DNA of 64,000 nucleotides from Roseococcus suduntuyensis. GTDB taxonomy: Bacteria; Pseudomonadota; Alphaproteobacteria; Acetobacterales; Acetobacteraceae. This document shows, one piece after another, positions 17,108-63,907 of the stretch. The position numbers and the translations under genes are program-made. Where the stretch lies: contig NZ_JACIDJ010000003.1 of assembly GCF_014196305.1 (NCBI RefSeq), positions 368,168 to 432,167 of the forward strand. The letters are read 5' to 3'. How positions within the stretch are numbered: the first letter of the stretch is position 1; every line of letters starts with the position of its first letter. Under the pieces are notes generated by a model. It searched no databases, was not told where the DNA came from, and saw only the letters and a list, made by a program, of their open reading frames with translations.

Positions 17108-18667
17108 ATGCCGAATCTGCACGCCCGCCTGAACCAATTCGTGGAGCGGCTTCCGCGCGCCCATCCCGGGCCGGGCGGGGCCATCGCCGTGCTGCGCGCG
17201 GGCGAGGTGCTGGTGCGCCATGCCTGGGGCTTCGCCAACGCGGAACGCCGCATCCCGTTCACGCCGCGCACGCTGTTCCGCATGTGCTCCATCACCAAGC
17301 AGTTCACCTGCGGCACGGTGCTGGAGGCCGTGGAGGACCTGGCCGCGCTCGACGCGCCGCTGCGCGCGCGCCTTCCGCTTCTGGAAGGGCCGGCGCCGTC
17401 CATCCTGGACCTCTGCCACAACCAGTCCGGCCTGCGGGACTACTGGGCGGTGGCGATGCTGCACGGCTCGCCCGCCGAGGCGCCCTTCGGCGACACCGAG
17501 GCCGCGCGCGTCATCGGGGCCACGCGCAGCCTGCATTTCGCGCCCGGCACCCGCTATTCCTATGTGAACCAGAATTTCCGCCTTCTGTCGGACCTGGTGG
17601 AGAACCACACGGGCCGCGGCTTCCCGGAGCTGCTGCGCCGCTTCATCTTCGACCGCGCCGGCATGGAGGGCGCCTTCCTCGCCGCCGACACCCGCGCCAT
17701 GCCCGACGGCACCGAGGGCTATGAGGGCAACCCCGTCTCGGGCTTCCGCGCGGCCGAGAACCGCATCCTCTGGACCGGCGACGCGGCGCTGGGCGCCACC
17801 CTGGACGACATGATCGCCTGGGAACGCTACATTGACGCCACGCGCGAGGCGCCGCGCGGCCTCTACAACCGCCTCTCCGCGCCCGTGCATTTCGCAGGCG
17901 GGGAGGAGGCGCCCTATGGCTTCGGCCTCGGCCGCGGCGAGGAATTCGGCATGGCCACCACCGGCCATGGCGGCGCGCTGCGCGGTTGGCGCAGCCACCG
18001 GCTGCATGTGGCCGAGGCGCGCATCTCCGTCGTCGTCATGTTCAACCACTTCGCCGACGCGCACTCCGCAGCCCTCGACGCGCTGGCCGCCGTGCTGGGC
18101 GAGGAACGCCCCCGCCCCGCCCCCCTGGAAGGCCCCGGCCCCGACTGGCTCGGCGCCTATCTCGAACCCGAGAGCGGCCTGGCCGTGCGGCTGGACGCGA
18201 CGGGCGGCGCCATCCGCCTGCGCTTCGGCCATGGGCCGGAGCGGCTGGAGCCGCTGCCCGAGGGCGGCGCCACCAATGGCCGCACGCGCCTGCGCCCCAC
18301 CGCCGACGGGCTGTGGATGGACCGCCCGCAGGAGAACATGTCCACCCGCCTCGAACCCCTGCGCGGCGAATCCCGCACGGATATCGAGGGCCGCTTCCGC
18401 TGCGAGGAGCTCGATGCCGAACTCTGGGTGACCCAGGCGGGCGGCGTGGCCTATGGCGGCTTCTCGGGCTTCCTGGGCCAGGGGCGGATGGAATTGCTGG
18501 AACCCATCGGCCCCGATGTCTGGGCCCTGCCCTGCCCGCGCGCCCTGGACCACACGCCGCCGGGCGACTGGACCCTGCATTTCCGCCGCGACGGCGGCGG
18601 CGCGGTGACGGAGGTGGTGGTGGGCTGCTGGCTGGCGCGCGGCCTGCGCTACCGAAGGGTGGGATAG
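17108..18667 (+). CDS. D-aminopeptidase-like serine hydrolase (beta-lactamase/class C PBP fold)
   Basis: This 519-residue protein has the length and motifs of Ochrobactrum D-aminopeptidase (Dap), which releases N-terminal D-amino acids. The SxxK motif is SITK (about residue 61, in MCSITKQFTC). The YxN motif is in RYSYVNQNF (about 156) and HGGALRG gives the third box. Two C-terminal beta-barrel-like domains (from about residue 340) are also as in Dap. No signal peptide is seen. It follows the GGT gene closely. The stop codon TAG at 18665-18667 coincides with the first bases of a tandem palindromic repeat array. Confidence 0.87.
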   Translation: MPNLHARLNQFVERLPRAHPGPGGAIAVLRAGEVLVRHAWGFANAERRIPFTPRTLFRMCSITKQFTCGTVLEAVEDLAALDAPLRARLPLLEGPAPSILDLCHNQSGLRDYWAVAMLHGSPAEAPFGDTEAARVIGATRSLHFAPGTRYSYVNQNFRLLSDLVENHTGRGFPELLRRFIFDRAGMEGAFLAADTRAMPDGTEGYEGNPVSGFRAAENRILWTGDAALGATLDDMIAWERYIDATREAPRGLYNRLSAPVHFAGGEEAPYGFGLGRGEEFGMATTGHGGALRGWRSHRLHVAEARISVVVMFNHFADAHSAALDALAAVLGEERPRPAPLEGPGPDWLGAYLEPESGLAVRLDATGGAIRLRFGHGPERLEPLPEGGATNGRTRLRPTADGLWMDRPQENMSTRLEPLRGESRTDIEGRFRCEELDAELWVTQAGGVAYGGFSGFLGQGRMELLEPIGPDVWALPCPRALDHTPPGDWTLHFRRDGGGAVTEVVVGCWLARGLRYRRVG

Positions 18668-18877
18668 AGTGCGATCCGCGGAGGCGGGAACGCCGGAGCG
18701 GTGAATCGCCCTCTCAACAGAGTGCGATCCGCGAAGGCGGAATCGCCGAAGCGGTGAATCGCTCTCTCAACAGAGTGCGATCCGCGAGGGCGGAATCGCC
18801 GGAGCGGTGAAACGCCCTCTCAACAGAGTGCGATCCGCGAAGGCGGAATCGCCGGAGCGGTGAAACGCCCTCGCCGA
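18666..18877 (+). repeat. Tandem palindromic repeat array, 4 x 53 bp (GAAT-loop family)
   Basis: Four copies begin at 18666, 18719, 18772 and 18825. Each has a 39-nt core (18671-18709, then every 53 nt): outer GCGAT, inner CCGC and GGCG arms, a GAAT loop (GGAA in copy 1), CGCC and GCGG, then TGA and ATCGC. Cores are joined by a CCTCTCAACAGAGT-type linker. Copies 3 and 4 have AAACGC as the 3' outer arm. The array starts inside the TAG stop of the upstream gene. The 18878-18954 remainder up to glyQ holds a degenerate GTGATCCGCG fragment and the glyQ leader. Confidence 0.9.
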
Positions 18878-18954
18878 GGAGGCTGGCGCGTGATCCGCGT
18901 GAACGGGTCATGCTCCAGGTTCCGTCCCGGCCCGCCAGGGTCTAGAAGCGCGGC

Positions 18955-19806
18955 ATGACCCCGAGCTTCCAGGACATCATCCTGCGCCTGCACGCCTTCT
19001 GGTCGGCGCAAGGCTGCCTCATCCTCCAGCCCTATGACATGGAGATGGGCGCCGGCACCTTCCACCCGGCCACCACCCTGCGGGCGCTGGGCCCCACCCC
19101 TTGGTCGGCCGCCTATGTGCAGCCCTCCCGCCGCCCCTCGGACGGGCGTTATGGCGAGAACCCCAACCGGCTGCAGCACTACTACCAGTACCAGGTGATC
19201 CTGAAGCCCAGCCCGCGCGACCCGCAGGCGCTGCTGATGGAGAGCTACCGGGCGCTGGGCCTCGACCCCGCGCTGCACGACATCCGCTTCGTCGAGGATG
19301 ACTGGGAAAGCCCCACCCTGGGCGCCTGGGGCCTGGGCTGGGAGGTCTGGTGCGACGGCATGGAGGTGACGCAGTTCACCTATTTCCAGCAGGTGGGCGG
19401 CATCGCCTGCGAGGTGCCGTCCTGCGAGCTGACCTATGGCCTGGAGCGCCTGGCCATGTACATCCAGGGCGTCGAGAACGTGTATGACCTGCGCTTCAAC
19501 GATGCCGGCGTGACCTATGGCGACGTGTTCCTCCGCGCCGAACGCGAATACTCCGCCCACAATTTCGAGCATGCCGACGTGGCCCTGCTGAAGAAGCAGT
19601 TCGAGGAGGCCGAGCAGGAGTGCAACGCGCTGGTGGCGCAAAAGCTCGCCTTGCCCGCCTATGACCACTGCATCAAGGCCAGCCACCGCTTCAACCTGCT
19701 GGACGCGCGCGGCGCCATCAGCGTGACCGAGCGCGCTTCCTATATCGGCCGCGTGCGGAACCTGGCCCGCGCCTGTTGCGAGACCTGGCTGGAGGGCGCC
19801 GCCTGA
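18955..19806 (+). CDS. glyQ: Glycine--tRNA ligase alpha subunit
   Basis: This is the 283-residue catalytic alpha subunit of the bacterial alpha2-beta2 glycyl-tRNA synthetase. FQDIILRLHAFWSAQGCLILQPYDMEMGAGT at the N-terminus, split around the class II motifs, and PWSAAYVQPSRRPSDGRYGENPNRLQ are nearly invariant in GlyQ. The ATG at 18955 gives the normal length. The stop overlaps the glyS start by 1 nt, ensuring balanced subunits. The gene follows a repeat array of palindromes. Confidence 0.97.
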   Translation: MTPSFQDIILRLHAFWSAQGCLILQPYDMEMGAGTFHPATTLRALGPTPWSAAYVQPSRRPSDGRYGENPNRLQHYYQYQVILKPSPRDPQALLMESYRALGLDPALHDIRFVEDDWESPTLGAWGLGWEVWCDGMEVTQFTYFQQVGGIACEVPSCELTYGLERLAMYIQGVENVYDLRFNDAGVTYGDVFLRAEREYSAHNFEHADVALLKKQFEEAEQECNALVAQKLALPAYDHCIKASHRFNLLDARGAISVTERASYIGRVRNLARACCETWLEGAA

Positions 19807-63754: not shown

Positions 63755-63762
63755 CCCAGCGG

Positions 63763-63801
63763 CCGATTCACGGCTTCGGTGACTCCACCGAAGCCGATCG
63801 G
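63763..63801 (-). repeat. Palindromic repeat, GAGT-loop variant of the GAAT family
   Basis: On the minus strand this 39-nt core has outer arms CCGAT and ATCGG and inner arms GGCTTCGGTG and CACCGAAGCC around a GAGT loop. GTGA stands before the 3' outer arm and CTAGCGT precedes the 5' arm. The inner stem differs from the 37.8-kb array at paired positions. It lies after the lipocalin gene. Confidence 0.85.
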
Positions 63802-63857
63802 ACGCTAGAGCATGCTGCGTTCACATGCGTTCACGCCGCCTGCTCCAACCTTTGTTG

Positions 63858-63907
63858 AGAGCGGGATTCAGCGTTTTCGGTGATTCCACCTCAACGCATC
63901 CCGCTCT
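63858..63907 (-). repeat. Palindromic repeat with a 10-bp outer stem (GAAT family)
   Basis: Outer arms are AGAGCGGGAT and ATCCCGCTCT, perfectly paired. Inner arms on the minus strand are GCGTT and GGTG with CACC and AACGC, a GAAT loop, a GA/GAA internal bulge and the TGA before the 3' arm. It sits 15 nt from the end of the transposase gene. The segment between this and the previous repeat (63808-63857) is a related imperfect GAGCA...TGCTC palindrome. Confidence 0.8.

Follow-up and report, generated by a model that had tools for sequence, protein, structure and literature searches.

Among described bacterial repeats, the closest to the family reported here are the CcrM-associated intergenic repeats (CIR) found in Caulobacter and further alphaproteobacteria (Chen and Shapiro 2003, via PMC2229807). 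In the account given by PMC2229807, CIR are about 110 bp long, consist of two long inverted-repeat arms and a linker, carry a GANTC site at or partly in the terminal loop of one arm and do not lie in genes; the same account mentions multiple stops in all six frames as an unpublished remark, not as part of the definition. As far as their respective sources describe them, the palindromic Bru-RS repeats measure 103–105 bp (PMC2267715) and serve as landing sites of IS711, which duplicates the TA of YTAR (PMC2266754). The GTAG and CGTC classes of repetitive extragenic palindromes (REPs) are, in the account of PMC3733652, single hairpins of 20–40 bp, intergenic, near gene 3′ ends and mostly between convergent or codirectional genes; the same account has GTAG REPs often supplying TAG stops, and CGTC REPs occurring mainly as head-to-head dimers and missing from Acetobacteraceae. 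Here we describe dispersed palindromic repeats in a 64,000-nt stretch of Roseococcus suduntuyensis (contig NZ_JACIDJ010000003.1, positions 368,168 to 432,167), hereafter the window. We regard it as fairly probable that these CIR-like repeats have spread as a small non-autonomous mobile element, with TA at the ends of genes, for the most part within the stop codon, as its point of entry.

The window contains 14 copies of one hairpin across seven sites, at the positions first noted. The original prediction that the seven sites share one fold is borne out: a strict descriptor (an outer arm of at least five pairs ending in GAT, an inner stem, TGA and ATC) matches the window at 10 places, whereas 40 dinucleotide shuffles of it average 0.075 matches. 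The hairpin, arm A, is 49 bp long and runs from 5′ to 3′ through 10 outer positions, an inner stem, commonly an internal loop of three by three bases, and a tip stem with a small loop, with a bulged TGA preceding the 3′ outer arm. All of the paired outer-arm variants named at the outset are present. The GAAT loop, described as usual, occurs in 8 of the 14 copies, with GGAA, GAAC, CAAT, GAGT or a shorter loop in the rest, and the unpaired TGA, although real, is not absolute: copies 18772 and 18825 have TGAAACGC, whereas TCAATCGG stands in copy 32706, with TCA replacing TGA. In CCGC-type window copies, positions 15–17 and 30–32 of arm A form an internal loop with GNA on both sides and a free middle base, reminiscent of sheared GA motifs.

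Some copies of arm A are halves of a full unit of 91–102 bp, in which a linker (near CAACAAAGG) connects arm A to arm B, another hairpin. The window has two such units. The 102-bp type II unit at 63806–63907, on the reverse strand, comprises arm B (63806–63845), the linker (63846–63857) and arm A (63858–63907); the unit at 31613–31704, on the forward strand, comprises arm A (31613–31661) and arm B (31672–31704), and its arm ends are alike. A single arm A, also on the reverse strand, lies at 63758–63806. We take the two-arm unit as the insertion form.

Covariation between the arms, as originally claimed, is retained well beyond the window. In an alignment of 100 genomic copies (94 distinct; the alignment was fitted to the model), 92.4% of cells are paired and 215 two-sided changes are spread over 13 of the 17 pairs, with all five measures reached by none of 500 shuffles; the covariation score is 0.354 and falls to at most 0.170 when partners are shifted by 1–3 columns. 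The 14 window copies, aligned without reference to structure, agree on three of the five measures: 89.4% of cells are paired, there are 23 two-sided changes, and the covariation score is reached by 0 of 500 shuffles, whereas two measures are matched more often ('pairs with a change on both sides' in 40 of 500 and 'further pair types' in 246 of 500). While arm bases drift pairwise, the GAT of the 5′ arm and the TGAATC of the 3′ arm are near-invariant, each base being kept in at least 96 of the 100 copies.

The pairing of the arms is thus maintained; that selection is what maintains it, as the original prediction held, we infer. Quasipalindrome correction makes palindromes more perfect without selection, and covariation could in principle be the product of such hairpin-templated mutation instead of selection on the fold. 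That explanation seems improbable, since the repeats keep their imperfections: outer-arm position 5 is a standing mismatch (TC 45, CT 31, CC 9 and TT 2, with CG in only 10 of 100 copies) and the TGA bulge is retained. One place, G000:C3:195778–195825 (G000 being the genome of the window), is an almost perfect palindrome that starts AGCGTCCGATCGG and is matched on both strands; it looks like an arm A with its 3′ half replaced. A longer variant with an extended tip lies antisense between codirectional genes at G000:C3:146001–146058 and 202766–202823, the latter missing from the sister species G003 and G004.

The family extends across the genome, the genus and much of the Acetobacteraceae. An exact-core pattern allowing three or fewer mismatches has 55 matches in the whole genome and 0 when read backwards. 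The covariance-model search proposed with the original prediction, run with a model from the 14 window copies, gives at least 153 matches in the genome and further ones in other Acetobacteraceae. Matches occur in 19 of 19 genomes of the genus, from 1 to at least about 150 each. Under stricter filters, they occur in 139 of the 299 genomes sampled from the Acetobacteraceae, spread over 56 of 102 genera, named genomes including Roseococcus, Roseomonas, Falsiroseomonas, Neoroseomonas and Rubritepida. In other families of the class, 1 of 12 genomes has matches, two in number, with a best E of 8.6e-8.

We read 832 kb completely, one fifth of the genome (the whole of C3 plus 400 kb from C1), and this sequence holds 121 copies in 73 arrays, those on C1 being joined within a single strand. 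The copies comprise two sets. In the first, 123 model matches were reduced to 59 by leaving out opposite-strand duplicates, matches with E > 0.13 and a partial one at window 42528–42551 (E 0.051), and then to 56 by removing three by eye that lacked the family's arms (C3 20783, 95010 and 201491); in the second, 67 matches less two opposite-strand duplicates gave 65, and another list of 50 had four removed. Genes were called with a simple retrained caller, and single gene ends may be off. Two to four units stand head to tail in 30 of the 73 places, and opposite-strand pairs within 70 bp number one, on C1. All but three arrays, which are inside genes or unclear, lie in gaps between called genes (70/73), many overlapping gene ends by a few bases. 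Convergent gaps hold 41 of the 70 placed arrays, compared with 121 convergent among 782 gaps overall; 24 arrays are in codirectional and 5 in divergent gaps.

At gene ends, the repeats often form the stop codon. In 54 arrays, the closest gene end on the 5′ side is a sense stop, and 27 of these 54 have an offset of exactly −2, so that the stop TAG is made of a flanking T and the repeat's AG; in a further 11 the stop lies within or overlaps the repeat. TAG accounts for 32 of 48 adjacent stops but for 125 of 784 stops overall. On the 3′ side, opposite-strand stops cluster at +8/+9 (12 of 53). At three window sites, the repeat completes the stop codon. In the forward-strand array of four units (18666–18714; 18719–18767, which has the top covariance-model score, 74.9 bits; 18772–18820; and 18825–18873, where G004 has a single unit), the AG of the first unit finishes the stop TAG of the gene at 17108–18667. 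On the reverse strand, the same holds for the last of three units (37785–37831, 37837–37883 and 37889–37935) and the gene at 37934–38413, and for the second of two units (47701–47749 and 47755–47803) and the gene at 47802–48131. The remaining window array has two forward-strand units (32706–32751 and 32758–32803). TA is found at the 5′ junction in 33 of the 73 places; among copies from named genomes, 49 of 78 have it (CTA 21, TTA 11, GTA 10 and ATA 7).

Several lines of evidence from sister species suggest that the repeats move, as their previously proposed likeness to mobile elements implied. G003 and G004 match the window with 92–93% identity over collinear stretches of 15–18 kb, and the presence and size of arrays differ between them. 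First, at G003:C1:185259, a 93-bp unit interrupts GGGATAGCGGGG, for which G000 and G004 have an identical empty allele. TAG stands on both sides of the unit, and this TAG is the gene's stop in G000, G003 and G004 alike; the arrangement fits either a target duplication or an element end that itself carries TAG. Second, the entire 91-bp unit at 31613 is missing from G003, and the site at 47701–47803 has no repeat in G004, whereas G003 carries a type II unit there, located at the TAG where gene and repeat meet. Third, arrays change in length. The site at 18666–18873 has four units in the window and one in G004, and that at 37785–37935 has three in the window, four in G004 and one in G003; of the 32 C3 arrays, 21 could be placed in G004, where 14 of the 21 are shorter by at least 35 bp and one is longer. 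Fourth, G000, G003 and G004 hold the 102-bp unit in many places, with identities of at least 90%. At five hand-picked clean sites, the gene ends at one and the same codon whether or not the repeat is present.

In the scenario that we favour, a two-arm unit would insert at the TA of a gene end, mostly in the stop codon, through a transposase acting in trans that would recognise the hairpins; arm A would then likely persist alone or multiply into head-to-tail arrays, and the survivors would be insertions that leave the reading frame closed. In mRNA, the result would be a stable hairpin right behind the stop codon, likely shielding 3′ ends. Most differences between the sister species would be gains, not losses. 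A number of observations weigh against this account. TA is lacking at the 5′ junction in 40 of the 73 places, and a 3′ TA is weak (7 of 73 at +11). The empty alleles at the five clean sites end TAG, TAG, TGA, TGA and TAA; the two that end TGA offer no TA, so they lend a TA target rule no support. The empty G004 allele at 47701–47803 could be a deletion between TGAATCAG repeats. Most single-arm sites have no clean empty allele, so loss is possible there, and how single arms arose we infer for that reason. Finally, the searches described below for Y1, for DDE_3 in G000 and G003, and for the insertion sequence (IS) at the window end in G003 and G004 found no mobilising gene.

The position and fold of the repeats would also suit host-built signals for transcription or mRNA 3′ ends that are not mobile, species differences then being selected gains and losses. 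The preference for convergent gaps and the predicted RNA folds of seven window arms, which are stable at −22.0 to −32.8 kcal/mol, speak for such signals. Against them stand the near identity of 102-bp units in many places, the clean 93-bp insertion, the wide range of copy number within the genus and, in our reading of the gene calls, codirectional arrays that are about equally antisense and sense; we give this explanation little chance.

The original prediction likened the repeats to REP/RAYT or MITE families. In the first case, they would be REP elements moved by a RAYT, a Y1 HUH transposase, acting on a single-stranded hairpin. The bulged hairpins, head-to-tail arrays, gene-end position and TAG donation do resemble REPs, and other Acetobacteraceae have RAYT-like genes with GTAG-type REPs of their own. 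The search for a linked Y1 transposase went against the proposal. This genome has no match to Y1 (PF01797), and the same is true of 20 of the 21 genus members searched. Within the family, the repeat is present in 20 of 35 Y1-bearing and 119 of 264 Y1-less genomes (Fisher p 0.21, no association), and 119 of 139 repeat-bearing genomes are without Y1, a figure that presumes both 299-genome samples to be identical. Across 96.9 kb surrounding Y1 transposases, at 32 loci, the repeat model had no significant match (best E 0.23), and the repeats have no GTAG tag. The absence of Y1 and of repeats at Y1 loci led us to reject RAYT as the driver, and movement of this kind is very improbable. At two loci of another Acetobacteraceae genome (L264 and L269), a RAYT-like gene is accompanied by inverted palindromes of its own, of the GTAGCCCGCAT type, which have no relation to the repeats of the window.

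The repeats might instead be miniature inverted-repeat transposable elements (MITEs) derived from a DDE insertion sequence of the IS630 or IS5/IS427 type that duplicates a TA target. The TA at many 5′ junctions, the TAG flanking the clean 93-bp insertion at either end and the similar arm ends of the unit at 31613 are consistent with this, as is an insertion sequence, presumably of IS5 type, whose end occupies window 63908–64000 (weak DDE_Tnp_1_2 match, E 0.037, below the cut-off): where the end can be read, in 12 copies, it lies next to CTA in 11 (L331, L332, L335, L336, L338–L342 and L344–L346), and by eye it adjoins the end of a palindromic repeat in at least L335, L346, L332 and L336. However, its ends (GGCTCCGGACTC) differ from those of the repeats and it is absent from the repeat-rich G003 and G004, which makes it an unlikely driver. 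The IS630-type DDE_3 domain is absent from G000, G003, G009 and G015; an IS630-type transposase is likewise unlikely to be the driver. Moreover, DDE enzymes read end sequence, whereas the arm sequence here drifts in pairs. A MITE origin of this sort is on balance unlikely, if the least so of the alternatives. The window-end insertion sequence also breaks the assembly at several contig ends, and at L332 and L336 (G009) other hairpin repeats with CTAG-like ends and a different arm sequence lie beside it.

Neither DDE_3 nor the window-end insertion sequence led to a parent element with the repeat's ends, other IS families not having been searched. Nor did a search with the 102-bp type II unit yield any longer, autonomous element from which it might derive; in 21 genomes it found matches in 11, as whole units, arm A only and arm B only, and the one near pair that was read (G004:C1 3366612 / 3367802) is two separate copies flanking another gene. 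Self-comparison of the G000, G003 and G004 stretches alone revealed no dispersed element of at least 200 bp with near-identical copies, only tandem paralogues and a few dispersed pairs at 80–82% identity. A 232-bp direct repeat in the window (42598–42829 and 43989–44220, 81% identity) likely represents two neighbouring paralogous genes. With clean sister-species sites in hand and no Y1 gene to account for them, the hunt for a mobilising enzyme becomes a concrete task.

The GAAT loop and bulged TGA singled out by the original prediction have a further property that had gone unnoticed, as had the stop-codon position: the loop with the next C, and the bulge with the following ATC, both spell GAATC, a GANTC (CcrM) site. 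The bulge site is kept in 93 of 100 aligned copies. Among the 121 copies, GANTC is present at the 3′ arm in 110 and at the loop in 37, a minority. GANTC occurs 671 times in the 832 kb, where base composition predicts 2191; the repeats make up 0.7% of that sequence yet hold 147 of the 671 sites and 139 of the 246 noncoding ones. This corresponds to 25.5 sites per kb within repeats versus 0.63 outside, with the copies sharing ancestry and not counting as independent events; the corresponding densities are 27.2 and 0.68 in the G004 stretch and 24.9 and 0.56 in the G003 stretch. Seven control motifs of the same composition reach 0 to 1.2 per kb within repeats, except TCNGA at 8.3.

The genome encodes a CcrM-like methylase with a RAMA domain that spans the NCBI CcrM model end to end, although its 610.7 bits fall under the cut-off of 830 for this Caulobacter-type model, a point against a CcrM role. 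The enzyme would be expected to methylate the GANTC sites of the repeats. By eye in the list of open reading frames, its gene lies directly downstream of an apparent ribonuclease HII gene. GANTC is reported to be over-represented between genes in alphaproteobacteria except Rickettsiales (Gonzalez et al. 2014, as cited in PMC7987155). In the 832 kb, GANTC is 6.3 times as dense between genes as within them, and 3.0 times once the repeats are removed; sites contributed by repeats should therefore be distinguished from regulatory ones.

A more speculative idea, which we consider doubtful, sees in the repeats a mobile element clocked by methylation that now provides the cell with its principal dispersed set of extragenic CcrM sites. 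In the hairpin GA is unpaired and ATC paired, so that CcrM could mark the duplex form only; hemimethylation after replication would then license hairpin extrusion and movement, with stop codons as landing pads. Dam sites license IS10 movement through hemimethylation after replication in a comparable way. Were this true, the alphaproteobacterial intergenic GANTC surplus would be partly the footprint of such elements, not of promoter regulation.

The repeat family brings together small mobile palindromes, stop codons and CcrM sites, which are usually studied apart. The original prediction recognised no described family, which is right only in part. Rfam gave 0 matches above the gathering score in the window, and a search of the open-licence literature returned no paper on this Acetobacteraceae/Roseococcus palindromic family, no element joining a covarying hairpin, GANTC and a stop codon, and no mention of single-arm arrays or of the share of noncoding GANTC; the two-arm GANTC unit, on the other hand, fits the published description of CIR. 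Other families are more distant. Two RIME-like units of Sinorhizobium pSymB, near 30041 and 73735 (RIME reportedly being the repeats of Osteras 1995), have two hairpins, the first starting GAGCGGGATG like the type II unit, but differ from it in their inner sequences, and the match of their ends is only suggestive (4 loose matches in 200 kb; of 20 controls, 18 had 0 and two had 2). Described in words and not compared by sequence, the Bru-RS/IS711 pair is similar in having a palindromic repeat of about 100 bp that serves as landing site of a TA-duplicating insertion sequence; in the present case the window-end insertion sequence is absent from two repeat-rich sister species. With GTAG and CGTC REPs, the repeats share an intergenic position between convergent or codirectional genes near gene 3′ ends, and with GTAG REPs the donation of TAG. 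We nevertheless rejected a grouping with either: the base before TA(G) varies and no GTAG is fixed, and, unlike CGTC REPs, the arm measures 49 bp and multi-unit places run head to tail.

CIR remain the nearest match, by description and not by sequence. Like CIR in the account available to us, the repeats are alphaproteobacterial and intergenic, and their full units are about 100 bp long, with two arms, a linker and a GANTC site at or beside the terminal loop, although a simple scan finds the second hairpin in just 14 of the 73 places and the loop site belongs to the minority of copies given above. Stops in all six frames are not seen, as the window composite has no stop in one frame and a single stop in another. 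Unlike CIR, most copies here consist of a single arm, often in head-to-tail arrays, and carry a second, better-kept GANTC at the 3′-arm bulge.

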